DNA of 64,000 bases from Rhodopseudomonas palustris. Lineage in GTDB: Bacteria; Pseudomonadota; Alphaproteobacteria; Rhizobiales; Xanthobacteraceae. Position numbers and translations under genes: made by a program. This document shows positions 47,875 through 64,000 of this stretch, piece by piece (positions within the stretch are counted from its first letter, which is position 1; the number at the start of each line of letters is the position of its first letter). Location of the stretch: assembly GCF_013415845.1 (NCBI RefSeq), contig NZ_CP058907.1, forward strand, positions 4,278,001 through 4,342,000, read 5' to 3'. The notes below the pieces were generated by a model. That model made no database searches. It was not told the origin of the DNA and saw only the letters and a list, made by a program, of their open reading frames with translations.

Positions 47875-50535
47875 TTAACGCAGCAGCTGCAGGACGCTCT
47901 GCTGCGACTGGTTTGCCAGCGACAGCGCCGACACCGCGATCGATTGCCGCGTCGACAGCGCCTGACTGTTGGCCGCTTCTTCGTTGGTATCGGCGAGCGT
48001 CAGGTTCGCCGAGCCGGTCTGCAGCACGTTGATCAGACTCTTGGCGAAGTTCTGGCGGATCTGCACGATCGACAGATTGGAACCGTACGACGACGCCTGC
48101 GACCGCAGCGTGGTCGATGCGGTGTTGAGCGCAGCCAGCGTCTTGTTGGTGGCTGCGTTGTCGATGAAGTCCGTGCCGGCCACCAGCGTCGGCAGGCCGA
48201 GCGCAGCGGGCGTCAGCGCCGTGCCGACGATGGTCAGCGTCGACTTGCCGGTTTCGTTGAATACCAGCTTCAGCGTGTCGCCGTTCAGCAGGTTCACGCC
48301 GTTGAACGAAGCGTCCTGCGACGTGGTGGTGATCTGCGCGATGACGTTGTTGTACTGCTCGACCAGCTTGGCGCGCGCTGCCTGCGAATTGAGGTCGGCG
48401 ACCGGCGGGTTCGGCGTGGTGAAGGTCAGCGTCGAGGTGATCGAGCCACCAAGCACGCCGCCGTCCGCGACCGAGCCGAGCGTCGACGACGCGTAGTCGT
48501 TGCTCGCCGAGATCATCAGCACGCCGTTGGCATCGACCTGCGCGGTCAGGTTGTTCGGCGCGAGCGCGGCGTTGAGCTGCGCCAGCGTCTTCACCGTGCC
48601 GCCGGTGCCATCGCCGAAGGTGACGCTGACCGGCGAGCCGCCCTTGAACGAGGTGAAGGTCATGGTCTTGCCGGAGACGCCGCCGGCGCCGGAGGCGCGC
48701 GACGCCTGAAACACCGTCGAGGTGCCGGTGTTGCCGGCGAGGCCGAGCGCCAGCATCGCATTGCCGGTGCCGCTGATGGTGAGGTCGGAAGCGCTGCCGG
48801 TCGAGATCTTCAGCGAACCGCTCGACAGCGACGAATTGGCGGAGCCGAGCTGGGTCGTCAGCGTCGCACCGGTCTGGGACAGCGTCGCGGTCTGCACGCC
48901 GGTGGCAAGGTCGATCGCCTTCAGCACGTCGGCGACGGTGCCGCCCTGCAGATAGACCGTCGAATTGCCGAGACCGTCGGTCTCGACGTGACCACTCACG
49001 CCGGTGTGGGTCGCCGAGGCGAGCGGCACCGGGGCGTTCTTGAAGGTGATAGTCTTGCCGTTGACGGTGAGGATCGAGCCGTCGTCGATCAGCGTGCCGA
49101 TCGTGTTTGCACCGGTGATGCGCGGAACGTCGAGCGTGGTCGGGCCGGAGCCGGTCGAGGTGGTGAGGTTCAGCGACTTCAGGAAGTCGGCAGGACCGGT
49201 GACGTGGAGATCGGCGCCGGTCGAAGAGTTCAACGTCACCACGCCGGCGCCGCTGATCGAAGACGCCGTGCCGTTGGCCGTGAAGGTCGCAATGCCGCCC
49301 GAGATCGTCGCCGACTTCACGCCGCTGGCGAGATCGATCGACGTCAGCACGTCGCCGACGGTGGCATTGGTGAAGGTATTGCTGGTGCCGAGATAGATCG
49401 TCGAGTTGCCCTGCGAGTCGGCAACAATGTTGCCGAGCACGCCCGAGCCGACCAACAGGCCGGCCGGCGACGGCGGATCGGACGCCTTGAAGGTGATGGT
49501 CTTGCCGTTCACCGTCAGCGTCGTGCCGTCGGCGATCGCCGCACCCAGGCCGCCCACGGTGTTGAACAGCTTGGTGCTGGCGGTGATCGGCGCCGAGGCG
49601 CCGGTGCCGAGCGACGTCGAAACCGGGGCGCTGAAGCCGAGCTTGGCCAGCACGGTGCCGCCCGAGGTGTCGGAGACCGACAGCGCGCGGTTGGTGCCGG
49701 TATGGAGCTCAAGGTGGCCGCTGGAGTTGACCACCGACGGGTTGCTGGTGTTGCCGTTGATGGTGTCGACCGTGGCGAGCAGTGCGTTGATCGGCTGGTT
49801 GACGCCGATCGTATAGTTGCCATTGCTGTCGATGGTCGGGGTGCCGGTGGCGGTGAAGGTGATGGTCTTGCCATCGACCACCAGCACGTCGCCGGCCTGC
49901 GGGCCGGTCGGGGTCGTGGTCGAACCATTGGTCAGCGACGAAATCAGGTCGGTGCCGGTCGCAGTCGCCGTCGCGGTGCCGGTATAGAGCACTGAGCCGG
50001 TCGAGGTCGCGTCGGTCGGCACGTTCTTGGTGACCGCGGTGCCGACCAGCGAGCCGATGCCGCCGCCCAGCGTATCGGTCAACGACACGCCGCTGGTGCC
50101 GCCGGCGGTGCCGTCATAGATCACGTTGCTGGTCGCGATCGCGCTGGCGAAGGTCTGAGTGCCGCGCAGATCGTTCGGCGTGGCGCCCGCGATGGTCGCC
50201 GCAACGTTGGATTTGGTCGAGTAGCCGACGTTCGATTGCAGCGCCTGGTTGGCGATCGATTTGGCGGTGTCGATCAGCTTGTTCAGCGAGGTGATGCCGG
50301 TGTTGGCCGCCTGAAGGATCTGGACGCCGTTGCCGATGCCGTCGAGCAGGTTGTTGATGTCGCTAGCGCGGCTGTCGAGCCCTGCTGCGGTGAAGAAGTT
50401 GGTCGGATTGTCGAGCGCGGTGTTGACCTTCTTGCCGGAAGCAAGACGGTTCTGCGTCGTCGCCAACAGATCGGCAGTCGACTGCAGCGATAGCAGATTC
50501 TGGCGAACCGCTGCCGAGAGAACCACATCAGCCAT
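47875..50535 (-). CDS. fliC: Giant flagellin with repeated central modules
   Basis: 886 residues, roughly twice the usual size. The conserved ends are present: N-terminal D0/D1 (1-105: LLSLQSTADLLATTQNRLASGKKVNTALDNP) and C-terminal D1/D0 (about 715-886: NNVIAQITTTSQDASFNGVNLLNGD ... VSALSLANQSQQSVLQLLR). Between them lie four related modules (about 213-309, 336-464, 484-609, 614-705). Each opens with a V(N/D)GKTITF or SGKTMTF strand and most close with a TG..DL.V.G....L..LGL pattern, so they arose by internal duplication. The modules would be exposed on the filament surface and are Ser/Thr-rich, good targets for O-glycosylation. Similar modules in Bradyrhizobium flagellins are, to my recollection, annotated as DUF1522. 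Confidence 0.93.
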   Translation of the reverse strand: MADVVLSAAVRQNLLSLQSTADLLATTQNRLASGKKVNTALDNPTNFFTAAGLDSRASDINNLLDGIGNGVQILQAANTGITSLNKLIDTAKSIANQALQSNVGYSTKSNVAATIAGATPNDLRGTQTFASAIATSNVIYDGTAGGTSGVSLTDTLGGGIGSLVGTAVTKNVPTDATSTGSVLYTGTATATATGTDLISSLTNGSTTTPTGPQAGDVLVVDGKTITFTATGTPTIDSNGNYTIGVNQPINALLATVDTINGNTSNPSVVNSSGHLELHTGTNRALSVSDTSGGTVLAKLGFSAPVSTSLGTGASAPITASTKLFNTVGGLGAAIADGTTLTVNGKTITFKASDPPSPAGLLVGSGVLGNIVADSQGNSTIYLGTSNTFTNATVGDVLTSIDLASGVKSATISGGIATFTANGTASSISGAGVVTLNSSTGADLHVTGPADFLKSLNLTTSTGSGPTTLDVPRITGANTIGTLIDDGSILTVNGKTITFKNAPVPLASATHTGVSGHVETDGLGNSTVYLQGGTVADVLKAIDLATGVQTATLSQTGATLTTQLGSANSSLSSGSLKISTGSASDLTISGTGNAMLALGLAGNTGTSTVFQASRASGAGGVSGKTMTFTSFKGGSPVSVTFGDGTGGTVKTLAQLNAALAPNNLTAQVDANGVLMISASNDYASSTLGSVADGGVLGGSITSTLTFTTPNPPVADLNSQAARAKLVEQYNNVIAQITTTSQDASFNGVNLLNGDTLKLVFNETGKSTLTIVGTALTPAALGLPTLVAGTDFIDNAATNKTLAALNTASTTLRSQASSYGSNLSIVQIRQNFAKSLINVLQTGSANLTLADTNEEAANSQALSTRQSIAVSALSLANQSQQSVLQLLR

Positions 50536-51056: not shown

Positions 51057-53204
51057 ATGCAGCCCGGACGCAGCAAGGCCATTCCCTCCCGCAATGCCTC
51101 TGACAAGGCTTACGAGCCCGCTGTGCTGCTGATGCGTGCGCGTGTGCTCCATCAGCAGGGCCAGCTCGACGAGGCGCGCTCCGCCTATAAGAAGGTGCTG
51201 AAGAAGGCGCCGGACAATTTCATGGCGCTGCACTTCTACGCACTCGCCGAATATCAGAGCGGCAACGCTGAACTGGGCATCAAGACGCTGAAGCGTGCGC
51301 TACTGGCCGATCCGAAATCGGCGCAGGCGCAGTCCGACATGGGCAGCATGCTGATCGCGGTCGGCCGCTTCGCGGACTCTCTGGCGTCGTGCGACAAAGC
51401 GATCGCGATCGATCCGACACTGATGCTGGCTTACGCCAATCGCGGCCTCGCCCTCTCCGCTCTCGCCCGCTACGAAGACGCGATCGCCAGCTTCGACAAG
51501 GCGATCGAACTGATGCCGGATCGCGCCGATACCTGGAACGATCGCGGCAACGCGCTGCATAAGCTAGGACGCTACACCGAAGCGCTGGAGAGCTACGACA
51601 AGGCGATCGAGATCGATCCTCTCAGCGACGTCGCCTTCATGAACCGCGCCGGCACCTACAAGGATCTGAAGCAGCTCGACAAGGCCCTGGCGAGTTACGA
51701 CCGCGCGCTGTCGATCGGCAAGCGGCCGGTCCAAGCCGGCCTCGCCCGCGCCGAAACCCTGCTGTTCATGCGCAACGTCAAGGACGCGATGGCGACCTGC
51801 ACCGCGGTGCTGAAGGTCGAGCCGAACTCGGCAATCGCGCTTACGCTGCTCGGCAACTGCATGGCGTCGCTCGGCGATGCCGAGACCGCAATCGCCTTGC
51901 ACAGCCGCGCCCTGGAGCTGATGCCGAACTACGAAGCGGCAATCTCCAGCAAGATCTTTTCGATGGACTTCTGCGCAGGCTCCAACGTCGAGGCGCAGCA
52001 GGCAGTTCGCAGCAGCTGGTGGACACAGATCGGCGCGCCGATCTACCGCGCCTGCGCCACTCCGCCGACCAACGACCGCGATCCCGATCGGCGCCTGGTT
52101 GTCGGCTACGTCTCGGCCGACTTCCGTGCGCATTCGGCGGCGTTCTCGTTCCGCCCGGTGATCGAGCATCACGACCACAGCCAGTTCGAAGTGGTGCTCT
52201 ATTCGGGCGTGGTGGTGCCCGACGATTCCACTCGAGCCTTCGAAGCGATCGCGGACAAATGGCGCGACGCGACGCTGATGAGCGACCAGGGGCTCGCCGA
52301 CCAGATTAAGGAAGACAAAGTCGATATTCTGGTTGACCTGTCCGGCCACTCCAACGGCAACCGGCTACGCGTGTTCGCCCGCAAGCCTGCTCCGGTGCAG
52401 GTCACCGCCTGGGGCCACGCCACCGGCACAGGCCTTCCGGTAATGGACTATCTGCTCGGAGACCCGGTGGCGATCCCGGTCGAAGATCGTCACTTTTATG
52501 CCGAAGCGGTCTATGACCTGCCGTCGATCGTCATCATCGAGCCGGTGCCGCAGCAATGGCGCTCTCTCGAACTACCGTTCGACCGCAATGGCTACCTGAC
52601 CTACGGCTCGCTGAACCGCATTTCGAAAATCTCGGACGCGGCGATCGAGGTGTGGTCGCAGGTGCTCGCCGCGTCGCCAACGTCGCGGCTGATCCTGAAA
52701 GACCATCAGATCGACGACCCCGCGGTGCGGCAGACGCTACTGGAGAAATTCGGCGCGCGCGGCGTCGCAGCCAGCCGCATTACCTTGCTGGGCTCGAGCT
52801 CGCGCCAGGATCACCTGGAAACGCTGAAGCAGATCGATCTCTGCCTCGATCCGTTCCCGCAGGCTGGCGGCGTCTCCACCTGGGAAGCTCTGCATATGGG
52901 CGTTCCGGTGGTCAGCCGGCTCGGCCACACCGTGCCCAGCCGGGTCGGCTGTGCGGTGCTCGCCGCCGCCGGGCTGCCGGATTTCATCGCGCCCAATGAC
53001 GCGCGCTACATCGAAATCGCCAGCAAGCCGGACCTTGAGCGGCTACGTTCGATCCGCCGCGGGCTGCGCGATTTCATCCTGCAGCGCTGCGGCCCGGCCG
53101 CCTACACCCGCGCGGTCGAAGACGCCTACCGGACGATGTGGAAGCGCTGGTGCGCCGCCCCGTTCGATGAAGCCAAGGACCGGGCCCTGCGCCGCGGGCG
53201 CTGA
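51057..53204 (+). CDS. TPR/GT41 (SPINDLY/OGT-like) glycosyltransferase, probable flagellin glycosylase
   Basis: 715 residues. The first ~330 are about eight TPR units (for example YANRGLALSALARYEDAIASFDKAIELMP, WNDRGNALHKLGRYTEALESYDKAIEIDP). Residues 345-700 are an O-GlcNAc-transferase-type catalytic region: VGYVSADFRAHSAAFSFRPVIEHHD, DILVDLSGHSNGNRLRVFARKPAPVQVTAWGHATGTGLPVMDY, and the nucleotide-sugar site DLCLDPFPQAGGVSTWEALHMGVPVVSR. GT41 enzymes attach sugars to Ser/Thr of cytoplasmic proteins. Its place opposite the flagellin makes filament protein the likely substrate. The start is uncertain: ATG at 51057 lacks a ribosome site, while an ATC nine codons earlier has one. Confidence 0.88.
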   Translation: MQPGRSKAIPSRNASDKAYEPAVLLMRARVLHQQGQLDEARSAYKKVLKKAPDNFMALHFYALAEYQSGNAELGIKTLKRALLADPKSAQAQSDMGSMLIAVGRFADSLASCDKAIAIDPTLMLAYANRGLALSALARYEDAIASFDKAIELMPDRADTWNDRGNALHKLGRYTEALESYDKAIEIDPLSDVAFMNRAGTYKDLKQLDKALASYDRALSIGKRPVQAGLARAETLLFMRNVKDAMATCTAVLKVEPNSAIALTLLGNCMASLGDAETAIALHSRALELMPNYEAAISSKIFSMDFCAGSNVEAQQAVRSSWWTQIGAPIYRACATPPTNDRDPDRRLVVGYVSADFRAHSAAFSFRPVIEHHDHSQFEVVLYSGVVVPDDSTRAFEAIADKWRDATLMSDQGLADQIKEDKVDILVDLSGHSNGNRLRVFARKPAPVQVTAWGHATGTGLPVMDYLLGDPVAIPVEDRHFYAEAVYDLPSIVIIEPVPQQWRSLELPFDRNGYLTYGSLNRISKISDAAIEVWSQVLAASPTSRLILKDHQIDDPAVRQTLLEKFGARGVAASRITLLGSSSRQDHLETLKQIDLCLDPFPQAGGVSTWEALHMGVPVVSRLGHTVPSRVGCAVLAAAGLPDFIAPNDARYIEIASKPDLERLRSIRRGLRDFILQRCGPAAYTRAVEDAYRTMWKRWCAAPFDEAKDRALRRGR

Positions 53205-53216
53205 GCCCCGTTCCCG

Positions 53217-55019
53217 CTATACGCCAGCGCCGCCGCTGTGCTTTGGCGCGGAGCCAGGGACGAACGGCGCGATCAGCATTTCGCGCTTGATCAGCTCATC
53301 GTCGATCGACGGCAGCTGACTCTCCAGCGGCGCGCCGAACTTCAGCACCGGGTACAATTTCTGCGCCGGGTTGATTTCGACGTTGCAGAACACCGGGCCT
53401 CTGCGCGCATAGACATCGCGGAGCTGGCCGGCAATGTCGGCGCTGCGGCTGATCGTGACCACTGGCAGATCCATCGCCTCGGCAACTTTCCGGAAGTCGA
53501 CGAACGACAGGCCGCTCGGCGCATCGACGCCGACATAGTGGCCATCGAGCCAGGTCTCCAGCGTCTGCTTCTGGATGCCATGGCCGTGATTATTGAACAG
53601 CATCAGCCGCACCGGCAGTTCGTGCCGCTTGAGCAGCGCCAACTCACCCAGCGACAGCATGAGGCCGCCGTCGCCGACGATGCAGGTGACACCGCCCCTC
53701 GCCTGCACCGCAGCGCCGATCGCCGCCGCCAGCGCGTAGCCCATCGCGGTGTTGTTCCAGTCCGAGATCAGCCGTTGCCCGCGTTTGATGCGGAAGCCGT
53801 TGCAGGTCCAGGTTAGGTTGCCGCCGGTGTCGACATAGAGCAGTTCGTCGGCGGGCGCAGCGTCGCTCAACTTGTCGATGAAGTCGTAGGCGTCGACGAA
53901 GCCGGCATTGTCGGGCGCGGGGCCAGGCCGATCATCCGGCAACGCGCTGCGCCAATGCCCGATGGTGTTCAGCCAAGCCTCGCGCGGCGGGGCCGCCTCG
54001 ATCGCGGCGAGCAGCTTCGGCACGAAGGCGTCGAGCCGCGCTGCGATCCGCGTCGCGATGCGGATACCGCGGTCGTCGAACTTGTCCATCTCGCCGCGGC
54101 TGGCGTCGACCATCACGATCGTCGCCTCGCGTGCGAACGACGGCAGGATGCCGCCGGTGACGTTCTGCGACAGCCGGCTGCCGAGGCACAGGATCAGGTC
54201 GGCGTTCTGCACCGTGAAGTTACCGAGCCGCGGCCCATAGACGCCGAACGGCCCGACCCGCAGCGGATGGTCGGCTGCGATCAGATCAGTCGCCGCCCAG
54301 GTGGTCAGCACCGGCATGCCGAGGCGGCCGACGAGGTGATCCAGCATCGACCCGATCCGCGGCGTCGACAGCCCGCCGCCGAGCACCAGCACCGGCCGCT
54401 TGGCCCGCGCAATCAGCGGCAGCAGCGCCGCGATCTCGGCGTCGAGATCATTCGATGCGGCCTCTGGCTCCGGCATGAAGCCCGGCAACGCGTCGGGATC
54501 GATCTCGGCCCGTTGCAGATCGTCCGGCAGATCGATCAGCACCGAACCGGGCCGCCCCTCGAACGCGAGATGGTACGCCTTCTCCAGATGATAGCGGATC
54601 GTGGTCGGATCGGAGATCTGCACCGCGTATTTAGTCACGGTGGCGAAGATCGACGTCACGTCGGTCTCCTGAAACCCGAGCTGACGGATCTGGTTCTTGC
54701 CCTTCAGCCGATGGGTCGCGACCTGCCCGGTGATCATCAGCGTCGGCACGGAGTCGTAGTAGGCGCAGCACACCCCGGTCAGCAGATTGGTGGCGCCGGG
54801 ACCCGAGGTGGTGATGGCAACGCCGAGCCTGCCGGTGGCGCGCGCGTAGCCGTCGGCAGCGATCGCGGCAGCCTGCTCGTGCTGGGGAAAGATCGGAGTG
54901 ACGTCAGGGTGACGCTGGGCGGAGTCGAACATGTGTACCGCGGCGCCGCCGGAAATGCCGAACACATGGGTGACGCCGCGCCGCGCCAGAAAATCGATGA
55001 CGTAGTCGGAGAGCTTCAC
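53217..55019 (-). CDS. Acetolactate-synthase-like thiamine-diphosphate enzyme
   Basis: 600 residues from a GTG at 55019 preceded by AAGGAGG. The N-terminal PYR domain has the cofactor-activating Glu in FPQHEQAAAIAADGYARATGR. The middle domain has VLVLGGGLSTPR. The C-terminal PP domain has the ThDP/Mg motif VGDGGLMLSLGELALLKRHELP...FNN. True acetolactate synthase would be with its small subunit or ilv genes; none is here. Instead it is the last gene of a nucleotide-sugar operon, where related enzymes such as YerE add a two-carbon unit to a keto sugar. The donor and acceptor here are unknown. Confidence 0.85.
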   Translation of the reverse strand: MKLSDYVIDFLARRGVTHVFGISGGAAVHMFDSAQRHPDVTPIFPQHEQAAAIAADGYARATGRLGVAITTSGPGATNLLTGVCCAYYDSVPTLMITGQVATHRLKGKNQIRQLGFQETDVTSIFATVTKYAVQISDPTTIRYHLEKAYHLAFEGRPGSVLIDLPDDLQRAEIDPDALPGFMPEPEAASNDLDAEIAALLPLIARAKRPVLVLGGGLSTPRIGSMLDHLVGRLGMPVLTTWAATDLIAADHPLRVGPFGVYGPRLGNFTVQNADLILCLGSRLSQNVTGGILPSFAREATIVMVDASRGEMDKFDDRGIRIATRIAARLDAFVPKLLAAIEAAPPREAWLNTIGHWRSALPDDRPGPAPDNAGFVDAYDFIDKLSDAAPADELLYVDTGGNLTWTCNGFRIKRGQRLISDWNNTAMGYALAAAIGAAVQARGGVTCIVGDGGLMLSLGELALLKRHELPVRLMLFNNHGHGIQKQTLETWLDGHYVGVDAPSGLSFVDFRKVAEAMDLPVVTISRSADIAGQLRDVYARRGPVFCNVEINPAQKLYPVLKFGAPLESQLPSIDDELIKREMLIAPFVPGSAPKHSGGAGV

Positions 55020-55042
55020 GCGGATCCTCCTTGCGCGGCCGG

Positions 55043-55849
55043 TCAATTGCCGTGCCGGCGCAGCTTGTAGATGTTCGGATCGGTGGCGAGCCGTTCGGTC
55101 AGCGCCGCGCCGCCGCCTCGCCAGGCATCGTGTACCACCGAAAAATTACGTCCGCCGGTCGCGGCGCTGCCCGCTTCGAACGCCCATTCGATGCAACCAA
55201 AGATGTCTTCGTAAGACGTGCCCTGCACGCCGCTGTCGAGAAATTCCAACGTGCGGCGCAGATTGACGCCGGCGTCGTCACCGGCCTCGACGGTCTGACG
55301 ATGGATCTTGGTGTTGACCCAGCCGGTACCGACCGCGATCGCGTGTACGTCTTGATACTCGTCGTCGAGCAGCTCGCACAGCTTCACCAGCATTACTTTG
55401 CCGAGGCAATAGGCCGAGTAGTTGCGGAACGGGCCGTTGATGCCGCCGCCTACCAGGAATGCGACCTTCGCGGTCGATGCTTGCGCACGCAACGGATACA
55501 GCGCATGCAGCAGCCGCATCTGCGCGACCGAATTCAGCGACAGCGACGCAGCCCACTCGTCGAAATTACGCCCGAAGAAATCTCCGATCGGCGACAATTG
55601 TCCCGCAGCGCTGATCAGCCGCTCCCAGGGCTTGCCGAGCGCCGCGATCTCCGTGGCTGCGCTGCGCACGCTGCCGGCATCGGTCAGATCGCAATGCACC
55701 AGATGGATGCCGGCATCGGCCTTCAGCTCGTCCAAATTCTCGCTGGAGCGATAGGTGCCGATGACCTCATAGCCCTGCGCCCGATACAGCTGCGCCAGCC
55801 TGACACCGATATCGCTGGAGATCGCCGCGATGATGACGCCGCCGCTCAT
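55043..55849 (-). CDS. Short-chain dehydrogenase/reductase
   Basis: 268 residues, Rossmann fold. The cofactor loop is AAISSDIGVRLAQLYRAQGYEVIGTYRSSENLDEL, a variant of TGxxxGIG in which Gly is replaced by Ser-Asp. ISAAGQL stands for the NNAG block, and the catalytic motif is YSAYCLGK (Tyr-x3-Lys). It should reduce or oxidise a sugar carbonyl with NAD(P). Its ATG overlaps the stop of the nucleotidyltransferase (ATGA) and it ends 23 bases before the acetolactate-synthase-like gene. Confidence 0.87.
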   Translation of the reverse strand: MSGGVIIAAISSDIGVRLAQLYRAQGYEVIGTYRSSENLDELKADAGIHLVHCDLTDAGSVRSAATEIAALGKPWERLISAAGQLSPIGDFFGRNFDEWAASLSLNSVAQMRLLHALYPLRAQASTAKVAFLVGGGINGPFRNYSAYCLGKVMLVKLCELLDDEYQDVHAIAVGTGWVNTKIHRQTVEAGDDAGVNLRRTLEFLDSGVQGTSYEDIFGCIEWAFEAGSAATGGRNFSVVHDAWRGGGAALTERLATDPNIYKLRRHGN

Positions 55850-56766
55850 CGCTGGGCCCCATAGGTCTTTGCCGCAGCCTGGGCGAAGGCTCGCGCTAGA
55901 GCGCCGTTCTTGTCGGTCATCAGGCCATACCAGGGATCGTCGTTATTGGTCTCCGTCATTGCGAGCCTAAGGCGAAGCAATTCAGGGGCCCCGTGCACCA
56001 GGCTGGATTGCTTCGCAGGCTGCACCTCCTCGTAAGGACGCGGAGAGGCGAGCACGGCCAGCGGATAGTCGAGCTGCGCCAGCGCCAGGCTCGACGGATT
56101 GCCGATGTCGCGGTGATAGCTGCCGTTGTGGAACGAGAAGATCCGCCCCATGAACACCGGCAGCACTTCGGTCGAGAAATCGACCACCGGTTTGCCGAGC
56201 GAGGCGATGAAGTCGATCACCTCGGGCTCGACGATATACACCGCCGCGTTGGCAAGATTGCCCTTGGGATGCTGCGGCTTCTCGTCCATCTCCAGGACGC
56301 GGCCGGCGGGATCGAGGGTGAGGATGCCGCAGCTCTGGGGATGATCGGTGACGAAACTCATCATCGTCATCGCCGTATCGGGCGGCCGCCCCGCATGGGC
56401 CGCGAGGAAGGCGCGCGGATCGAACAGGCTGAGATTGTCGGCATGGGCGAACAGCGTCGGCCCATCCGCGAAGTGCGCGCGATGCCGCAGCAGCGTGCCG
56501 GCGGTGCCGAGCAGCGTCGTTTCGGGTGCGAGGATCACCCGTTCTACCCACGGGCTGCGGCGGACGTACTCGCTCACGAGATCCGCATGGTGATGCAGAT
56601 TGACGACGATCTCCGAGAACCCTGCCTCGCTCAGCATCTGCAGCCACAATCCAAGCAGCGGGCGCCCGGCGATCGGCATCAGGCATTTCGGCAGCACATC
56701 TGTGAGCGGGGCGAGCCGCGTGCCGAGGCCGGCCGCGACCAGCAGCGCCTTGGCGCCTCCGCTCAT
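55846..56766 (-). CDS. Sugar-1-phosphate nucleotidyltransferase with palindromic-repeat insert
   Basis: 306 residues. The N-terminus LLVAAGLGTRLAPLTDVLPKCLMPIAGRPLL is the nucleotidyltransferase signature; HADNLSLFD holds the metal-binding Asp; MDEKPQHPKG and VDFSTEVLPVFMG are further conserved blocks. It makes an NDP-sugar from a sugar 1-phosphate and NTP, like HddC or mannose-1-phosphate guanylyltransferases. Residues of about 242-271 are encoded by a dispersed palindromic element that keeps the frame and adds a segment near the C-terminus. Overlaps the kinase fusion upstream and the SDR downstream by four bases each. Confidence 0.87.
   Translation of the reverse strand: MSGGAKALLVAAGLGTRLAPLTDVLPKCLMPIAGRPLLGLWLQMLSEAGFSEIVVNLHHHADLVSEYVRRSPWVERVILAPETTLLGTAGTLLRHRAHFADGPTLFAHADNLSLFDPRAFLAAHAGRPPDTAMTMMSFVTDHPQSCGILTLDPAGRVLEMDEKPQHPKGNLANAAVYIVEPEVIDFIASLGKPVVDFSTEVLPVFMGRIFSFHNGSYHRDIGNPSSLALAQLDYPLAVLASPRPYEEVQPAKQSSLVHGAPELLRLRLAMTETNNDDPWYGLMTDKNGALARAFAQAAAKTYGAQR
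55955..56040. repeat. Palindromic element inserted within a coding region
   Basis: Same family as 3565-3644: the left arm starts GTCATTGCGAG and the right arm contains CTGGATTGCTTCGCAGG and ends CTCCTCGTAAGGACG. It lies wholly inside the nucleotidyltransferase gene and contains no stop in that frame. Confidence 0.88.
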
Positions 56767-58247
56767 GTGTCGAGTTCCCGGATGATGTCACGCGCGGTGA
56801 CCGGGATGTTGCCGATCCGGCCGACCTGGCAGGCCGCAGCGATCGAGGCCAGATAGGCGCTGCGCCAGATGTCGGTGCCGATCGCCAGCGCCAGCGCCGC
56901 ACAGACGAAGAACGAGTCACCGGCGCCCGCCGCGTCTTTCGGCGCGGTGTTGAACGCCGGCAGCCGGTCGGTCACCACGGTGCCGGCGCTGCCGGTTTCG
57001 GCGTGGACCAAGAGGCCCTCGGCTGCCAGCGTCAGGATTACGTTCTTGGCGCGCGCCTTTTCACGCAAGGCTTCGACCAGCACGACAAGACCGGAGTCGA
57101 AATCGCGCATCGCCAGCCGCGCTTCGCGCTCGGTCGGCTTGATCAGCAGCATCTCGGCGAAGCGTGAGATATCACCGACCTGCGACGACGACTGGCTGTC
57201 GGCGACCATCGGAACGCCGCGAGCGCGGCACGCCTGCCCGATCGCCTCGACCAGCCGGGTCGGCAGGCAGCCGTAATTGAAGTCGGAAAACACCACCAGA
57301 TCGGTGCTCGGCAGCCGGTGCTCGATCGTCTCCAGCATCCGCGTCTGCAGATCGGCATCGACGTCGTGCTGCTTGAGATGACTGACGCGCAGCAGCGTCT
57401 TGTTGCCGGCGCGAAACCGCTGCTTGGTGGTGGTCGGCCGGCTCTCGTCGGTGAGGATGGTGGCGTCGACGTTGTAGGAGGCCAGCCGCTCCCGTGCAAA
57501 GTCCGCCATCGCGTCGCCGCCGCCGACGGTGAGCAGGCCGACCTGCGCGCCCATGCCGGCCGCATGACCGGCGACGATGCCAGCACCGCCGACGAACAGC
57601 TCGCGCAGCACTGGCGTCACCACGATGGTCGGGTCTTCCTGCGACAGGCCGAGCGGATCGCAGGCGATGTACTCATCGACGATCAGGTCGCCGAGCACCA
57701 GCACGCGCAGCTTGGGAAATCCCGCCAGCACGTTCTTCAGTTCAAGCAACTCGAAGCGGTGCCGCCGCGGATAGTCCAGCGGCTTGACGATCGACGACGG
57801 ATTGAACTCGCGAAACTCGCGCTTGATCAGATCGAGCGACGAGAACGCGACCTCGCCCGAGGAGAACACCAGCCGGCCGCCATAGCCGTCGAGCACCGCC
57901 TTCTCCGGATTGTCGGCGCCCTCGTGCTCCTTGCCCTTCACCACCACACTCGGCTGTAGCGCAGCGATGAAATCCTCCGGCGCATCGTGCAGCAGGAAGG
58001 CGTGATCGACCACGCCGATCGCGCGCACGCCTTCGAGCCGCAGCTCGGCCGGCAGCATCCAGTCGTAACCTGGATCGGCGGTGACGCCGACCACCAGATA
58101 GTCGCCGCAATCGGCCGCGAACTTCAACAGCCGGAGATGGCCGGGATGGACGATATTGAAATTGCCTGCGACGAAAACGATGCTGCGCCGGCGTCCGGCT
58201 TTTTTCCTGATATCCGCGAGCTCGGTGCTGGTTTCGGGATGCAGCAT
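56763..58247 (-). CDS. Cytidylyltransferase-PfkB kinase fusion (HldE-like, reversed order)
   Basis: 494 residues from ATG at 58247 preceded by GAGGTGA. Residues 20-165 are a nucleotidyltransferase with the HxGH motif (GNFNIVHPGHLRLLKFAADCGDYLVVGV). Residues 185-490 are a PfkB-type sugar kinase: VGGAGIVAGHAAGMGAQV, DFNYGCLP, and the catalytic DAAGAGDSFF near the end. HldE/RfaE of LPS heptose synthesis has the same two activities, but kinase first. Here the order is reversed. It likely phosphorylates a sugar or sugar phosphate and activates it as a nucleotide derivative. Overlaps the next gene by four bases. Confidence 0.86.
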   Translation of the reverse strand: MLHPETSTELADIRKKAGRRRSIVFVAGNFNIVHPGHLRLLKFAADCGDYLVVGVTADPGYDWMLPAELRLEGVRAIGVVDHAFLLHDAPEDFIAALQPSVVVKGKEHEGADNPEKAVLDGYGGRLVFSSGEVAFSSLDLIKREFREFNPSSIVKPLDYPRRHRFELLELKNVLAGFPKLRVLVLGDLIVDEYIACDPLGLSQEDPTIVVTPVLRELFVGGAGIVAGHAAGMGAQVGLLTVGGGDAMADFARERLASYNVDATILTDESRPTTTKQRFRAGNKTLLRVSHLKQHDVDADLQTRMLETIEHRLPSTDLVVFSDFNYGCLPTRLVEAIGQACRARGVPMVADSQSSSQVGDISRFAEMLLIKPTEREARLAMRDFDSGLVVLVEALREKARAKNVILTLAAEGLLVHAETGSAGTVVTDRLPAFNTAPKDAAGAGDSFFVCAALALAIGTDIWRSAYLASIAAACQVGRIGNIPVTARDIIRELDT

Positions 58248-58252
58248 CGGCG

Positions 58253-59308
58253 TCACCTCAGCGACGGATCGATTTCGATCAGCGGGCGCACGCTGCGGCG
58301 TTGCTCCAGATCGTCCAGCGCCTCGTTGATCTCGTCGAGCTTGTAGCGGCGGGTGAACATCGCATCGAGCGGCAGCTTGCCGTCGCGGTACAGCCCCGCC
58401 AGCAGTTCGATGTCGCGTTCCGGCTTGCTGTCGCCTCCCCAGGTGCCGAGGATTCGCTTGCCGCAGATCAGTTCGAACGGATCGAGCGCGATCTTCTCGC
58501 CGCTCCGCGGGTGCGAGGCGAACACGCATAGCCCGCCGAACCGCCGCGTGGCGTCGAACGCCTGCTCGATCACGCGGGTGAGGCCGGCAGATTCGATTGC
58601 GTAGTCGACACCGAGGCCGCCGGTGAGCTTTCGGATCTCCTCGACCGGATCACTGCGCGAGGCGTCGATCACCGTCGTGGCGCCGAGCTCGGTCGCCATT
58701 TTCAGCTTGGCGGCTTCGACATCGACAGCAATCACCTGCTTACAGGCAAACAGCTTGCAGGCCATCAGCGCCGCGAGCCCGATGCCGCCGAGGCCGAAGA
58801 TCGCCAGCGTCGCGCCCGGCTGCGGTTTGGCGATGTTGATGACGATGCCGGCGCCGACCGGCAGCGCGCAGCCGAACAGCACCGCAACGTCCATCGGCAG
58901 TCCGGCCGGCAGCGGCGTGACTCGGTTCTCCGCGACGACGGCATATTCGTTGAACGTGGTCACCGCGCCGGCGTTGATAACACGCTCCCCGCTGGCGTAG
59001 CGCACCCCCTGGGTGTCGGCGCCCTGCCCCTTGATCCAGCCGAGAATGACATGATCGCCGCGCTTGACCTTGGTGACCCCGCCACCGATCTCGACGACGA
59101 CGCCGGAGCCTTCGTGCCCGAGCATGTGCGGCAGATAGCGATCCGGCCCGCGCCCGCCCCGCGCTTCCATCACCTGACTATGGCAGACGCCGGAATAGGC
59201 GAGCTTGACCAGCACCTGCCCCGCCGCGAGCGGTGGCGCCTCGACCGTCTCGATCGAGAGCAGCTGATTGAGTTCATGCAGCACCGCAGCGCGGAAGGTC
59301 ACGGACAT
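58253..59308 (-). CDS. Medium-chain dehydrogenase/reductase (zinc alcohol dehydrogenase family)
   Basis: 351 residues. The catalytic zinc ligands are in GVCHSQ and MLGHEGSGVVVEIGGGV. The Rossmann motif is IFGLGGIGLAALMACK, followed by AVDVEAAKL, suited to NAD. The structural-zinc lobe has no four-cysteine cluster. It oxidises an alcohol or reduces a carbonyl, here presumably on a sugar intermediate. ATG at 59308 is used; further upstream the frame reads into a palindromic repeat. It ends 5 bases before the kinase-fusion start. Confidence 0.9.
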   Translation of the reverse strand: MSVTFRAAVLHELNQLLSIETVEAPPLAAGQVLVKLAYSGVCHSQVMEARGGRGPDRYLPHMLGHEGSGVVVEIGGGVTKVKRGDHVILGWIKGQGADTQGVRYASGERVINAGAVTTFNEYAVVAENRVTPLPAGLPMDVAVLFGCALPVGAGIVINIAKPQPGATLAIFGLGGIGLAALMACKLFACKQVIAVDVEAAKLKMATELGATTVIDASRSDPVEEIRKLTGGLGVDYAIESAGLTRVIEQAFDATRRFGGLCVFASHPRSGEKIALDPFELICGKRILGTWGGDSKPERDIELLAGLYRDGKLPLDAMFTRRYKLDEINEALDDLEQRRSVRPLIEIDPSLR

Positions 59309-59344
59309 GACGACCTCCGCGCACTCGAGTCCTGCCCTCGCCCC

Positions 59345-59430
59345 GTCATGACGAGCGAAGCGAAGCAATCGAGGGGCTCCGGGCACTGAGCCCCTCGATT
59401 GCTTCGCCGGCTTCGCCTCCTTGCAATGAC
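59345..59430. repeat. Dispersed palindromic element, GTCATTGCGAG family
   Basis: Inverted repeat starting GTCATGACGAGCGAAGCGA and ending CTCCTTGCAATGAC, in the 150-base gap between the E1-beta and MDR genes of the sugar operon. It is the only large gap in this operon and may set a boundary in the transcript. Confidence 0.9.
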
Positions 59431-59458
59431 GGTGAAAGGTTGTGCCATCATCGCCCCC

Positions 59459-60511
59459 TCAAAACGGCCCCGAGAACCACGTACCCGGCACGTCGTGCGG
59501 GAAGGTCCGCTGAGCGACCAGCGAGGCGATTTCGACCTCGCGGCCGAGCATCCGGCCGACAGCCTCAGCGATGTGTTCGGCGCGGACATGATAATTTTTG
59601 GTCAGCGCCGGGCTGGTGGCCTCAGGGACGTCCGGCGCGGCGAGGCGCTGCGGCGCGCTTTTGAGGCTCGCGAAGTGATCGGTCGCGACGCGCGCGACGA
59701 TTTCGCCGGCGACACCGCCGGTCAGATGCCCACTGTCCAGCGCCAGCAGACGCCCGGTTTTCTGCACCGATGCGATAACAGCCGGCCAGTCCAGCGGACG
59801 AATGCTGCGCAGGTCGATCAGATCGCAGGCGATGCCTTGCGTGGCGAGATGATCGACGGCATGCAGCGCTTCCACCGTCATGTAGCTCATCGCCACGATG
59901 GTCACCGCATCGCCCTGGCGCACGATGCGGGCCTTGCCGAGAGGGCTGCGGACATCGCCCGCCGGCACCTCGCCCTTCATGTTGTGCAGCCAGCGGTGCT
60001 CCAGGAAGATCACCGGATCGTCGTCGAAGATCGCGCCAAGCAGCAGCCCCTTGGCATCCTCGGCGGTGGTCGGCATCACCACCTTCAGCCCCGGGATATG
60101 CGCGAACCAGGATTGCAGGCTCTGCGAATGCGTCGGACCCTGGCCCCAGCCGCGGCCAATGATCATCCGGATGGTGATCGGCACGCCGCGCTTGCCGCCG
60201 AACATGAAGCGCCATTTGGCGGCGTTGTTGACGAGCTGATCGAGCGACAGCAGCGCGAAGTCGAGCCGCTGATGCGTCATCACCGGCCGCATCCCGTTCA
60301 GCGCCGCGCCGATCGCAAAGCCGGTCATCGCCGCTTCCGAGGTCGGCATGTCGAACACACGGTCGGAGCCGAACTGTTTGTGCAGGTCGAGCGTGGTGCC
60401 GAACACGCCCTTGGGGTCGTCGGTGCCTAGGCCGAAGCAGATCACATCGTCGTCGACCGCAAGCGCGGTGGCGAGCCCATCCCGGATGGCTGCGGCGAAG
60501 GTGGTTGCCAT
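59459..60511 (-). CDS. Dehydrogenase E1 component beta subunit (transketolase-like)
   Basis: 350 residues from ATG at 60511 after GGAGGG. The pyrimidine-binding domain (TSEAAMTGFAIGAALNGMRPVMTHQRLDF with the ThDP-activating Glu) and the C-terminal transketolase domain (VAMSYMTVEALHAVDHLATQGIACDLIDLRSIRPLD) are both present. It pairs with the alpha subunit 11 bases upstream. No E2 acyltransferase or E3 gene follows, so this pair probably does not form a classical 2-oxoacid dehydrogenase complex. It may instead transfer a ThDP-bound two- or three-carbon unit to a sugar. Confidence 0.9.
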   Translation of the reverse strand: MATTFAAAIRDGLATALAVDDDVICFGLGTDDPKGVFGTTLDLHKQFGSDRVFDMPTSEAAMTGFAIGAALNGMRPVMTHQRLDFALLSLDQLVNNAAKWRFMFGGKRGVPITIRMIIGRGWGQGPTHSQSLQSWFAHIPGLKVVMPTTAEDAKGLLLGAIFDDDPVIFLEHRWLHNMKGEVPAGDVRSPLGKARIVRQGDAVTIVAMSYMTVEALHAVDHLATQGIACDLIDLRSIRPLDWPAVIASVQKTGRLLALDSGHLTGGVAGEIVARVATDHFASLKSAPQRLAAPDVPEATSPALTKNYHVRAEHIAEAVGRMLGREVEIASLVAQRTFPHDVPGTWFSGPF

Positions 60512-60522
60512 TTTCGCCCTCC

Positions 60523-61500
60523 CTAGCCTGCTGCTGACGCATAGACGTCGGTGAAGGCGTCTTCGGGCGGCGGAAACGGCGAGCTTTCTGCGAAGGCGAA
60601 CGCCTCCTCGATCTCGGCATCGATCTCCGCCTGCATGTCGGCGACGTCGGCGGCGGTCACGATAGCTTCGGTGATCAGCGCACGCTGCAACGCCGGCACC
60701 GGATCGCGTAGCTTCCACGCCTCGAATTCGGCCATCGTGCGATAGCCGAGGTCGTTGTCGTACATCGGGCCGCAATGCTCGCGCCAGCGATAGGTCTCGA
60801 ATTCGTAGAACCGCGGCCCCTCGCCGGCCCGGATCGCCGCAACGCCTTCGCTCAGCGCGGCATACACGGCGCGCGCATCATTGCCGTCGCCGTGATGCGT
60901 CTTGAGGCCGAAGCCGGCGACAAGCTCGTACAGCTTGCGGCCGGGCGGCTGCCGCACCGACAGCGGCGAATACACCGAGTAGCCGTTGTTCTCGCACAGG
61001 AACAACACCGGGAGCTGCTTCACGACCGCGAAGTTCACCGACTCGAAGAACACGCCGGTTTCCGGAACCGCGTCGCCAAGAAACACGCAGGAAATCTGAC
61101 CCGTCTGATTCAGCTTCATCGGATACGACAGCCCGACGCCGACGGGCACCGTTCCGCCGACGATCGCGGTCGAGCCCATGAAGCCGACGCTCTCGTCGAC
61201 CAGATGCATCGAGCCGCCTTTGCCGCGGGCGCAGCCGGTGACCTTGCCGTAGATCTCGGCGATCATCGCCTTCAGTGATCCGCCCTTAGCAAGATAGTGC
61301 GCGTGGGCGCGATGACCGCTGACTGCAAGATCGGTCGGCCTCAGCACCGCTCCGGCCGCCGCAGAGACGGCCTCCTGCCCGACCGAGAGATGCGTCGGGC
61401 AGCGCATCTTCTGCTCGCCGTAGCGCGCCGCGATGGTCTCCTCCACGCTGCGGATCCGCAGCATGTCGAACAACAGGCGGCGCGAGGTCTCGGGATTCAT
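60523..61500 (-). CDS. Dehydrogenase E1 component alpha subunit
   Basis: 325 residues. The ThDP motif is LGDAVPETGVFFESVNFAVVKQLPVLFLCENN (GDx...NN). MHLVDESVGFMGSTAIVGGTVPVGVGLSY and TYRWREHCGP are typical of E1-alpha. Its ATG at 61500 overlaps the methyltransferase stop (ATGA). Together with the beta subunit it forms a ThDP heterotetramer; the absence of E2/E3 genes and the sugar-gene context argue against housekeeping pyruvate or branched-chain oxidation. Confidence 0.9.
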   Translation of the reverse strand: MNPETSRRLLFDMLRIRSVEETIAARYGEQKMRCPTHLSVGQEAVSAAAGAVLRPTDLAVSGHRAHAHYLAKGGSLKAMIAEIYGKVTGCARGKGGSMHLVDESVGFMGSTAIVGGTVPVGVGLSYPMKLNQTGQISCVFLGDAVPETGVFFESVNFAVVKQLPVLFLCENNGYSVYSPLSVRQPPGRKLYELVAGFGLKTHHGDGNDARAVYAALSEGVAAIRAGEGPRFYEFETYRWREHCGPMYDNDLGYRTMAEFEAWKLRDPVPALQRALITEAIVTAADVADMQAEIDAEIEEAFAFAESSPFPPPEDAFTDVYASAAG

Positions 61501-62156
61501 GGGATGAACCAGTAGTAATCGCCGGTGTAGCCGATCTGGGCGAAGAAGGCCTTCCACTCGTCGACATGCATGATGGTCTGAGCGGTCAGATTCCACGCCA
61601 TCATCCTGCGTTTCTCCTCGTCGTCGCGATAGGCATCGACGGTGATGAACGCGCCCTTGCGCGCCACCCGCTCGATCTCGCGCAGCGCAGCCGCACAGTC
61701 GTCACGGACGAGGTTGTGCACCGTGTTGACCGAGATCACCACGTCGAACGACTTATCGGCGAACGGCAGCTTCACCGCGCTGGCGACGCTGAGGTGGGGC
61801 TTCATGTCGTCGATCGCATGCGCGATCGCGTAATCCGAGACGTCGACGCCCTTCACGGTGATGCCGGGGATCAGCTCGGCCATATCGTGCAGCATGAAGC
61901 CTTTGGCGCAGCCGACATCGAGCACCGACGACGAGGCATCGAGGCCGAAATGCTGCTGGAAGGTCGGGATCACCGGCTGCCAGAACCGCGGCAAATAGTT
62001 GAAGCCGCCATAGCCGTGGCGGCGGTCGCCGTCGAAAAACTCCTTGCCGAAGCGCCGCGCAATCGCGCGATCCTCTTCGGACTTGGTTTGGCCGCGCTCG
62101 TCGACATTGCGCTTGGTGCGCGGATAGTTGACGAGCAGATCGATTTCCTGACCCAT
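61497..62156 (-). CDS. Class I SAM-dependent methyltransferase
   Basis: 219 residues from ATG at 62156, which follows TTGAGG. Motif I VLDVGCAKGFMLHDM, the acidic end of strand 2 (VKGVDVSDYAI) and motif IV-like SFDVVISVNTVHNL are present. It should methylate a small molecule, in this operon most likely a sugar. Overlaps E1-alpha by four bases; the upstream epimerase stop lies 8 bases before this ATG. Confidence 0.9.
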   Translation of the reverse strand: MGQEIDLLVNYPRTKRNVDERGQTKSEEDRAIARRFGKEFFDGDRRHGYGGFNYLPRFWQPVIPTFQQHFGLDASSSVLDVGCAKGFMLHDMAELIPGITVKGVDVSDYAIAHAIDDMKPHLSVASAVKLPFADKSFDVVISVNTVHNLVRDDCAAALREIERVARKGAFITVDAYRDDEEKRRMMAWNLTAQTIMHVDEWKAFFAQIGYTGDYYWFIP

Positions 62157-62164
62157 TGCGGTCC

Positions 62165-63202
62165 TCAAGGCTTGTGCGCGTAGTCGAACGGCTGGCTCTT
62201 CAGTTCTTCGAACCAGCGATCGATCCAGGCGATCGTCTGTTCGATGCCCTGCTCCAGCGTGATCTGGTCGCTCCAGCCGAGTTCGCTGCGCAATTTGCTG
62301 CTGTCGAGCTTGTAGGCGGCGTCCTTGCCGAGCCGCTCGCCAACGATCTCGACCTGATCCTCGAACCGCACGCCCATCATCGCGCAGATCATCTCCACCA
62401 GGGCGCGGATGGTGACGATCCGGTCGGTGGAGATGTGATAGCTGTCGCCAAGCTTGCCGTTGCAGGCGATCCGCCTGGTGGCGTCGGCGACATCGGCCGC
62501 ATGGATGAACGAGCGCTCCGAGGTTCCGCCGCCGTGCAGCTGCAGCTTGCGGCCGAGCTTGATGAACAGGATGGTGCGCGGCACGATCCGATACAGCCGC
62601 TGCCCGGGGCCATAGACATTGGCCGCACGGGTGAACAGCACGGGAAAGCCGTAGGCGCGGAAATACGATCGTAAGCTCATGTCGCCGGCGGCGCGCGACA
62701 CCGCATAGGGCGTCGATGGATCGAACACCGCATCCTCGGTCAGCGTGCCGGTGGCGTTGCCGTACACTTCCGGCGTGGTGACGTGGACGTAGCGCTCGAG
62801 GAAGTCACAAATCCGCAGACGCTCGTGCAGCCGCACCGTCGACACCACATTGGTCATGAACCAATGGTCCGGATTGGCCCAGCTCTCGCCGACCATGCTC
62901 TGCGCGGCAAAATTGATGATGCAGGGAAACCGCTCGGCGGTCACCAGTTGCATGATCGCGTCGAGATCGTGGTTGAGGTCGAGCTTCTGAAACCGGAAGC
63001 GATCGGCCTTCTTCCAGCGATACGGCAGGAATGCCGGATGCGGCTCGTCGGAGCGGCTGATGCCGACGACGTCGGCACCCTGGTCGAGCAGATAGCTGAC
63101 CATCGAGGCACCGGTAAACGAATTCGAACCGATCACCAGATATTTGTCGAAGCCCGCGCGGGCCATCGCACACGGCGCGGACGCGGGAACGATACCGGTC
63201 AC
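62165..63202 (-). CDS. NAD-dependent epimerase/dehydratase with Arg in the catalytic motif
   Basis: 345 residues from a GTG at 63202 that overlaps the upstream gene's stop; an ATG at 63166 is an alternative. The fold fits extended SDRs that act on NDP-sugars: VIGSNSFTGASMVSYLL cofactor loop, IINFAAQSMVGESWANP, TTPEVYGN, RAANVYGPGQR. The catalytic Tyr-x3-Lys reads YAVSR, with Arg in place of Lys, and the glycine loop is a GSNSFTG variant. It most resembles the GDP-mannose 4,6-dehydratase/GDP-6-deoxy-lyxo-hexose group. Its substrate is an NDP-sugar of unknown type. Confidence 0.88.
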   Translation of the reverse strand: MTGIVPASAPCAMARAGFDKYLVIGSNSFTGASMVSYLLDQGADVVGISRSDEPHPAFLPYRWKKADRFRFQKLDLNHDLDAIMQLVTAERFPCIINFAAQSMVGESWANPDHWFMTNVVSTVRLHERLRICDFLERYVHVTTPEVYGNATGTLTEDAVFDPSTPYAVSRAAGDMSLRSYFRAYGFPVLFTRAANVYGPGQRLYRIVPRTILFIKLGRKLQLHGGGTSERSFIHAADVADATRRIACNGKLGDSYHISTDRIVTIRALVEMICAMMGVRFEDQVEIVGERLGKDAAYKLDSSKLRSELGWSDQITLEQGIEQTIAWIDRWFEELKSQPFDYAHKP

Positions 63203-64000
63203 GCCTGTAGGCTCCGCTGCATCCAGCGCAGATTGTAGTGGCGGTCCTCGTTCTTCAATTCGCCGCGCTGGAATTTGACGATGATCTCGCGGATCGCGTC
63301 GTTCACCGTCTTCTTCGGCTTGAAGCCGGTCGCCAGCAGCTTGTCGGAATTGATCCGGTAGGAGCGCGGATCGTTCGAGGCGGTGACGGTGATCTTGGTC
63401 GGCACCTGGGCGTCGACCATCTTGGCGATGTCGAGGATCGAGATGTTCTCGAAACCGGCATTATAGATGCCGCGCAGCTCGGGCCGGTCGAGCAGCATCA
63501 GGTACAGATCGGTGATGTCGTCGATGTGGATGTTGGGACGGACCTGATTGCCGCCGAACACAGTAATCTCACCGTTGGTCAGCGCCTGCATGGTCAGCAT
63601 GTTGACCGAGACATCGAGCCGCATTCGCGGCGAGGGCCCGCACACCGTCGCCGGGCGTACGATCTGCACCGCCATGTCGCCGGCGTAGCTGAGCATCACC
63701 CGCTCGGCCACCATCTTGGTCTTGTTGTATTCGGAGATCGGCTCCAACGTCAGGTCCTCGGTGACCTGCTCTTCGTCCTTGATGCCGTAGACGCTGCCGG
63801 ACGACGCGTAGACGAAGCGCTGGATGCCGGCGCGCGCGGCGCGGTCGGCGAGCTGCATGGTGGCGAGTGCGCTGATCTCCCAGGTCAGCTTGGGATCGAG
63901 ATCGCCGCACGGATCGTTGGCCACCGAAGCCAGATGCACGATCGCGTCGATCCCGGAGAGGTCGATCGAGCTGGTATCGCGAACGTCGCCACGTATCACG
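63199..64000 (-). CDS. NAD-dependent epimerase/dehydratase (5' end outside the window)
   Basis: 267 visible residues; the N-terminal NAD-binding loop is beyond the right edge. Visible extended-SDR features: IVHLASVANDP, YASSGSVYG, catalytic YNKTK (Tyr-x3-Lys), RPATVCGPSPRMRLDV, FGGNQVRPNIHIDDITDLYLMLL. It epimerises or dehydrates an NDP-sugar. Its stop overlaps the GTG of the second epimerase, so the operon extends to the right of this window. Confidence 0.9.
   Translation of the reverse strand, partial: VIRGDVRDTSSIDLSGIDAIVHLASVANDPCGDLDPKLTWEISALATMQLADRAARAGIQRFVYASSGSVYGIKDEEQVTEDLTLEPISEYNKTKMVAERVMLSYAGDMAVQIVRPATVCGPSPRMRLDVSVNMLTMQALTNGEITVFGGNQVRPNIHIDDITDLYLMLLDRPELRGIYNAGFENISILDIAKMVDAQVPTKITVTASNDPRSYRINSDKLLATGFKPKKTVNDAIREIIVKFQRGELKNEDRHYNLRWMQRSLQA

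Follow-up and report, generated by a model that had tools for sequence, protein, structure and literature searches.

A flagellin-flanked sugar operon with two kinds of thiamine diphosphate enzyme in Rhodopseudomonas palustris and its relation to the bradyrhizose gdh cluster

In a 64,000-nucleotide stretch of Rhodopseudomonas palustris DNA (here, the window; bases 4278001 to 4342000 of a 5.32-Mb single-contig genome), a sugar operon encoding both an acetolactate synthase-like protein (ALS) and an E1-alpha/E1-beta pair, all of thiamine diphosphate (ThDP) enzyme families, lies between two flagellin genes. The operon is composed of twelve minus-strand genes from 53217 to 65990 and extends beyond the window end, where the neighboring DNA of the same genome was examined. 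We consider it probable (roughly 0.6) that the locus is a flagellin glycosylation island, whose operon uses a variant of the bradyrhizose pathway to make a branched higher-carbon sugar that is nucleotide-activated and ThDP-extended. Three points are new here: the link to the bradyrhizose cluster at the level of genes, the ThDP slot as an exchangeable part, and the location between flagellins. The features, in window positions, are as follows (NDP, nucleoside diphosphate).

47875..50535, minus strand: flagellin 1 (Flagellin_N, DUF1522, Flagellin_C), bounding the island on one side
51057..53204, plus strand: OGT, TPR repeats and a glycosyltransferase family 41 domain (Glyco_transf_41, 136.5 bits), facing the operon; proposed flagellin transferase
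53217..55019, minus strand: ALS, putative YerE-like ThDP carboligase; GTG start at 55019
55043..55849, minus strand: SDR reductase, also found in 16 of 17 long named ALS-bearing loci (defined below)
55846..56766, minus strand: NTP, sugar-1-phosphate nucleotidyltransferase
56763..58247, minus strand: CTK, cytidylyltransferase-like domain fused to a PfkB kinase, in the reverse of the HldE order; GTG start at 58256 possible
58253..59308, minus strand: MDR, zinc-type alcohol dehydrogenase family
59459..60511, minus strand: E1-beta (Transket_pyr and Transketolase_C)
60523..61500, minus strand: E1-alpha (E1_dh)
61497..62156, minus strand: MT, class I methyltransferase adjoining E1-alpha; TTG start at 62168 possible
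62165..63166, minus strand: DH2, dehydratase-like SDR, orthologue of Bradyrhizobium gdh, with the motif VTTPEVYG
63199..64137 (window part to 64000), minus strand: DH1, NDP-sugar epimerase/reductase-like; start outside the window
64279..64962, minus strand, past the window end: SIS, GmhA-like SIS-domain protein
65070..65990, minus strand, past the window end: FkbM, FkbM-type methyltransferase, followed by flagellin 2

For comparison beyond the genus, E1-alpha was used to retrieve eighty named loci, the best 80 of 542, in which E1 is therefore present by construction. Locus counts refer to the 48 loci of at least 20 kb, the 32 shorter ones being left out, and were made at loose identity thresholds (36% for ALS).

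An operon between tandem flagellins

All ten genes listed in an initial annotation of the window, with their named domains, were recovered on the minus strand, and its statement that E2 and E3 are missing holds for every gene of the island. The end of the operon had to be moved from 64000 outward, as DH1 continues to 64137 and is followed by SIS and FkbM. The likely starts are GTG 55019 for ALS (with AAGGAGGA upstream), ATG 58247 or GTG 58256 for CTK, ATG 59308 for MDR, ATG 60511 for E1-beta, and ATG 61500 for E1-alpha. With the preferred starts, four-base overlaps exist at three junctions (SDR/NTP, NTP/CTK, and E1-alpha/MT), while the remaining junctions are gaps of 5 to 150 bases. The packing had been described as mostly four-base overlaps, which is generous, because only some of the gapped junctions become overlaps with alternative starts.

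ALS and OGT converge tail to tail, with flagellin 1 beyond OGT, and no terminator-like site was found at the ALS/OGT junction. Likewise, no promoter-like site was found upstream of the operon in the region scanned (L009, 1900 to 3200). Past flagellin 2, at 66121 to 66090 in window numbering, lies a terminator-like hairpin (a consensus match; 4 such sites in the stretch versus 0.8 expected). Between MDR and E1-beta, the gap of 150 bases contains a 20-base inverted repeat without mismatches and a second, weaker palindrome (59324 to 59407), which we take to resemble the dispersed palindromic elements of this bacterial group. No paper was recognized as describing the operon in a literature search that had most subscription journals beyond its reach.

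E1-alpha is present in 10 of the 16 Rhodopseudomonas genomes and in 17 of the 391 genomes of the family overall (E ≤ 1e-80), and ALS occurs in the same 10 Rhodopseudomonas genomes. The nine other carriers share the gene order of the window, FliC2-FkbM-SIS-DH1-DH2-MT-E1a-E1b-MDR-CTK-NTP-SDR-ALS-OGT, with flagellin 1 beyond OGT in all nine; the twelve genes form a co-oriented set in fixed order across the 10 carriers. The gene set is beyond chance: this order recurs in the nine other carriers, and the set itself recurs in loci of many phyla. Beyond flagellin 2 lie FlgL and FlgK, as judged from the order in related genomes.

Tandem flagellins 406 to 418 bases apart are found in four of the six noncarriers (G141, G156, G067, and G089). 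FlgL adjoins them in G141, G156, and G089, while in G067 about 6.6 kb of ordinary regulatory and transport-like genes lie between the tandem flagellins and the FlgL match. Another noncarrier, G190, is uninformative, as it ends at a contig edge at the flagellin site. The simplest reading is that the whole island was gained or lost at a site between tandem flagellins. A foreign base composition of the island was not seen (65.2% G+C in the operon versus 64.2 to 65.4% in the flanks).

The initial annotation proposed a surface sugar as the product of the operon. Because the island sits between two flagellins beside a TPR/glycosyltransferase family 41 protein, flagellin appears to be a likelier target than lipopolysaccharide (LPS) or capsule. 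FlmG, a protein with TPR and glycosyltransferase domains, glycosylates flagellin in Caulobacter (PMC7591256). OGT is like FlmG in domain layout, with N-terminal TPR repeats and a C-terminal glycosyltransferase domain, and is encoded beside a flagellin gene as well; however, FlmG uses pseudaminic acid (PMC7591256). Both flagellins of the island are long, with 886 amino acids (47875 to 50535) and, depending on the start, 888 to 906 amino acids (L009, 3146 to 5866). The DUF1522 region between the flagellin ends is a possible glycosylation site.

The two ThDP enzymes

E1-alpha and E1-beta score under the curated cut-offs for the E1 component of pyruvate dehydrogenase (283.2 of 393.85 bits and 279.8 of 454 bits, respectively), and a separate E1-alpha-family gene at 3161429 in the same genome scores better (346.9 versus 200.4 bits). 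The housekeeping pyruvate dehydrogenase is a different enzyme from this E1 pair. ALS contains ThDP decarboxylase domains with a GDG-NN motif, and its closest other copy in the genome is only 31% identical (225 bits). In a search against solved structures, ranked by score, 8rph (335 bits) comes first, followed by 5ahk (278 bits), which we take to be PpYerE, and 6lpi, an isozyme 1 acetolactate synthase (257 bits); chloroplast and mitochondrial acetolactate synthases also score behind 8rph and 5ahk. The 8rph chain has C-D-G at the ThDP motif, and we equated it with the YerE-like enzyme JanthE from this motif, which is a mark of JanthE according to a review (PMC12247030). By its sequence, ALS resembles the YerE-like, ketone-accepting carboligases. 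It is of the same family as YerE, ErwE, and JanthE and likewise has a reductase as its neighbor in a sugar operon, but it has GDG where JanthE has CDG, and a second ThDP enzyme is present in its operon.

Both enzymes belong to the families of pyruvate dehydrogenase E1 and acetolactate synthase, and they might be metabolic enzymes (a pyruvate or acetoin dehydrogenase and an acetolactate synthase) that merely happen to be located here. This is highly improbable: the scores lie under the curated cut-offs for both pyruvate dehydrogenase E1 and acetolactate synthase, E2 and E3 are absent among the island genes, the genome has further members of both families, and the neighbors are sugar enzymes in loci of many phyla. 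A housekeeping role was rejected on these grounds of score, context, and other genomic copies.

The review distinguishes three classes of ThDP enzyme with a known or proposed ability to attach carbon branches to keto sugars, namely, YerE-like decarboxylases, E1 pairs of the alpha-KADH2 kind, and split transketolases (PMC12247030), and the operon carries the first two. The alpha-KADH2 enzymes of antibiotic clusters (aldgamycin and kibdelomycin) are similar in gene context, being E1-alpha/E1-beta pairs among sugar genes without E2 and E3, whereas here the pair lies in a flagellar sugar operon with a kinase, an isomerase, and nucleotidyltransferases. From the two ThDP steps, the initial annotation had deduced a branched or carbon-extended sugar; this is the best-fitting reading, both kinds of enzyme having been described as branching NDP-keto sugars (PMC12247030), with activity and product predicted from the sequences.

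Relation to the bradyrhizose gdh cluster and a proposed pathway

The initial annotation left open whether the operon is connected with bradyrhizose. This sugar of Bradyrhizobium bears a methyl group. It is a ten-carbon bicyclic sugar that can form rings via O4, O5, or O9 (PMC9912281). C4 and C9 must accordingly be bonded, a connection that acyl addition to a 4-ketone would produce. An insertion in gdh of Bradyrhizobium ORS285, a gene annotated as dTDP-glucose 4,6-dehydratase within an eleven-gene cluster, gave LPS without bradyrhizose, and the study's authors state that, until the gdh mutants, no genes were known for making bradyrhizose (PMC4743980). The published gdh forward primer matches 4 of the 391 family genomes with at most two mismatches, all of one genus, taken as Bradyrhizobium. 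In one of the four loci (L113), both ORS285 gdh primers match exactly with a 381-bp span, within a gene 63% identical to DH2.

In all four loci (L113 to L116), the cluster has the order CTK-NTP-DH1-SIS-DH2-TKn-TKc-MDR-HAD-APH-MT, where TKn and TKc are the two parts of a split transketolase. Seven of these eleven genes are homologous to genes of the window operon, with 34 to 76% identity (in L113, CTK 55%, NTP 52%, DH1 76%, SIS 34%, DH2 63%, MDR 47%, and MT 43%; across the gdh-type loci, DH1 75 to 76% and DH2/gdh 62 to 63%). The gdh orthologue stands in the same DH1-SIS-DH2 setting in the window operon, and the DH2 proteins of L113 to L116 share its VTTPEVYG motif. No E1-alpha was found in L113 to L116, and the transketolase C part of the gdh cluster is only 26 to 27% identical to E1-beta, so that seven genes are common, two are exchanged for another ThDP pair, and the HAD-like and APH-family genes are missing from the window operon. 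Conversely, ALS, SDR, and FkbM are extras of the window operon that are lacking from the gdh cluster within the DNA examined. The gdh cluster is also a described LPS locus (PMC4743980), whereas the island is in a flagellar locus. Gene homology thus supports a tie to bradyrhizose; because the gdh cluster has a split transketolase and not E1 and ALS, the operon should make a different sugar.

Comparison with the gdh cluster suggests a definite, testable route to bradyrhizose, with the ThDP enzyme as the C4-branching step. Seven carbons of a heptose, two from the ThDP enzyme, and one from the methyltransferase would add up to ten, with acyl addition to the 4-ketone forming the C4-C9 bond. For the window operon, the sequences show which genes are present and in what order, their homology to the gdh cluster, the site between flagellins, and the exchange of the ThDP enzyme; we infer the catalytic steps, substrate, product, and target as follows. 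SIS would act as an isomerase on a ketose phosphate, for which sedoheptulose 7-phosphate is a possible candidate; CTK would phosphorylate the SIS product, CTK and NTP would activate the sugar, and DH2 and DH1 would form and set a ketosugar. E1-alpha/beta would decarboxylate pyruvate and add the two-carbon acetyl unit onto the ketone, giving a tertiary alcohol, and an alcohol of the E1 product would be oxidized by MDR. ALS would then add a second acyl unit, to be reduced by SDR, and MT and FkbM would methylate the sugar. In the product, one acetyl-derived branch would stem from E1-alpha/beta and a second, SDR-reduced branch from ALS; the product would also be methylated, and OGT would transfer it in the cytoplasm to serine or threonine residues of the adjacent flagellins. 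If true, this would mean a flagellin bearing a ThDP-extended sugar, as well as a source of new ketone-accepting carboligases.

A plain 4,6-dehydratase role is doubtful for DH2. RmlB has DEVYG, and 4,6-dehydratases carry an Asp-Glu pair in TDEVYG. This pair is altered in DH2: of the 65 DH2 rows, at least 59 have PEVYG, as do L113 to L116. DH2 may therefore oxidize without dehydrating.

Several points weigh against the proposed flagellin sugar pathway. SIS and CTK fall below the curated cut-offs for GmhA (98.5 versus 209.45) and HldE (181.2 versus 345), and of the 68 SIS proteins examined, 62 had a readable motif, which in 61 has Asp at the position of the catalytic Glu of GmhA. As in the HldE/GmhA heptose pathway, the operon encodes PfkB kinase and nucleotidyltransferase domains and a SIS isomerase; however, because of the scores, the Asp, and the reversed domain order of CTK, a heptose start is a lead, and a simple HldE/GmhA assignment was kept only as such. 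No phosphatase gene was recognized in the operon. The predicted structure of MT (mean pLDDT, 95.3) matches many class I methyltransferases with tied scores, among them O-, N-, and C-methylating enzymes, and this modeled fold does not separate O- from C-methylation. Outside Rhodopseudomonas, none of the 75 other named loci has a flagellin beside the module within the DNA examined. Moreover, the noncarrier G223 has OGT (L189, 1045 to 3138) between flagellin pieces without the sugar operon; OGT may therefore use other sugars and may be older than the operon at the flagellin site. Finally, polar effects of the gdh mutation were not excluded by the authors of that study (PMC4743980).

Alternatively, the operon may make a sugar of O-antigen or exopolysaccharide, C4-branched like that of R. 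palustris CGA009, with ALS being RhopE and the position between flagellins being incidental or serving both. The CGA009 O-antigen is made of a C4-branched monosaccharide (PMC9912281), and the review assumes a YerE-like RhopE (PMC12247030); RhopE could not be equated with ALS. Each of the 10 carriers has a single ALS match (E ≤ 1e-80), the island copy, and other named loci have the module without an adjoining flagellin, both of which would fit. However, the site between tandem flagellins with a family 41 transferase speaks for flagellin, and no polymerase, flippase, or ligase was recognized among the island genes. Furthermore, a 6-deoxy sugar (as deduced for CGA009 from its likeness to erwiniose) would need a working 4,6-dehydratase, whereas the DH2 motif is altered. 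An O-antigen or exopolysaccharide sugar is thus unlikely.

Spread of the module and exchange of its ThDP enzyme

A similar gene set exists across many phyla with different ThDP enzymes. The named loci come from many phyla, and many are metagenome bins. Among the 48 long loci, DH2 is present in 44, SIS in 43, DH1 and MT in 42 each, MDR and CTK in 36 each, and NTP in 22, while SDR is found in 18 and ALS and FkbM in 17 each; the transketolase C part also occurs in three. Searches with other queries added E1-type loci (L195 to L197) and transketolase-only loci (L198 and L199), of which L198 ends at the transketolase side, so that an E1 pair beyond it is possible. Sampling by CTK (5 of 398 genomes of the phylum) and by DH2 (5 of 385 genomes of the class), our own genome included in both, gained few loci. 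A tree built from 72 DH2 rows requires at least three changes on well-supported branches between the transketolase-only (6 rows) and E1 (66 rows) states. The Bradyrhizobium rows group with the E1-type alphaproteobacterial loci L195 and L073 (well supported), whereas L198 and L199 are placed elsewhere.

We tentatively suggest, at somewhat less than even odds, that DH1-SIS-DH2-MT-MDR-CTK-NTP represents a widespread pathway, of which no description was found, whose ThDP enzyme can be exchanged and which leads to higher-carbon sugars that are branched and perhaps carbocyclic. A split transketolase would lead to bradyrhizose, E1-alpha/beta to an acetyl-branched analogue, and ALS to a second branch, with the product placed on flagellin in Rhodopseudomonas.

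The distribution of ALS also bears on whether one sugar receives both branches. ALS, SDR, and FkbM travel together (of the 17 long loci with ALS, 16 also have SDR and 13 also have FkbM), 31 of the 48 long loci lack ALS at the 36% threshold, and in L018, L021, L068, and L071 E1 is encoded on one strand and ALS and SDR on the other. The operon may thus combine two pathways, the E1-type core making one sugar and ALS-SDR-FkbM decorating or making another, with no sugar carrying both branches. We regard this as unlikely, but less so than an O-antigen sugar: the twelve genes are co-oriented in fixed order in the 10 carriers, and ALS was not seen in the six transketolase-only loci examined. Overall, the observation made in the initial annotation is confirmed, and its interpretation is supported in part and was largely right in kind.

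Variants of the module were also noted. A related form has DegT/DnrJ-type aminotransferases near E1-alpha/beta (L203 to L206 and 17 of the 48 long named loci), which suggests amino-sugar versions of the product. The Methyltransf_13 domain occurs in sugar C-methyltransferases. A methyltransferase family that recurs near the module (13 loci in total, including L074, 11899 to 13299) shows, in L074, a weak match to this domain (24.4 bits, short of the Pfam cut-off of 31.3 bits). Relatives of E1-alpha/beta also exist in contigs binned as archaeal (L058 and L079; Naiadarchaeum, Nanoarchaeota), which could be binning errors.

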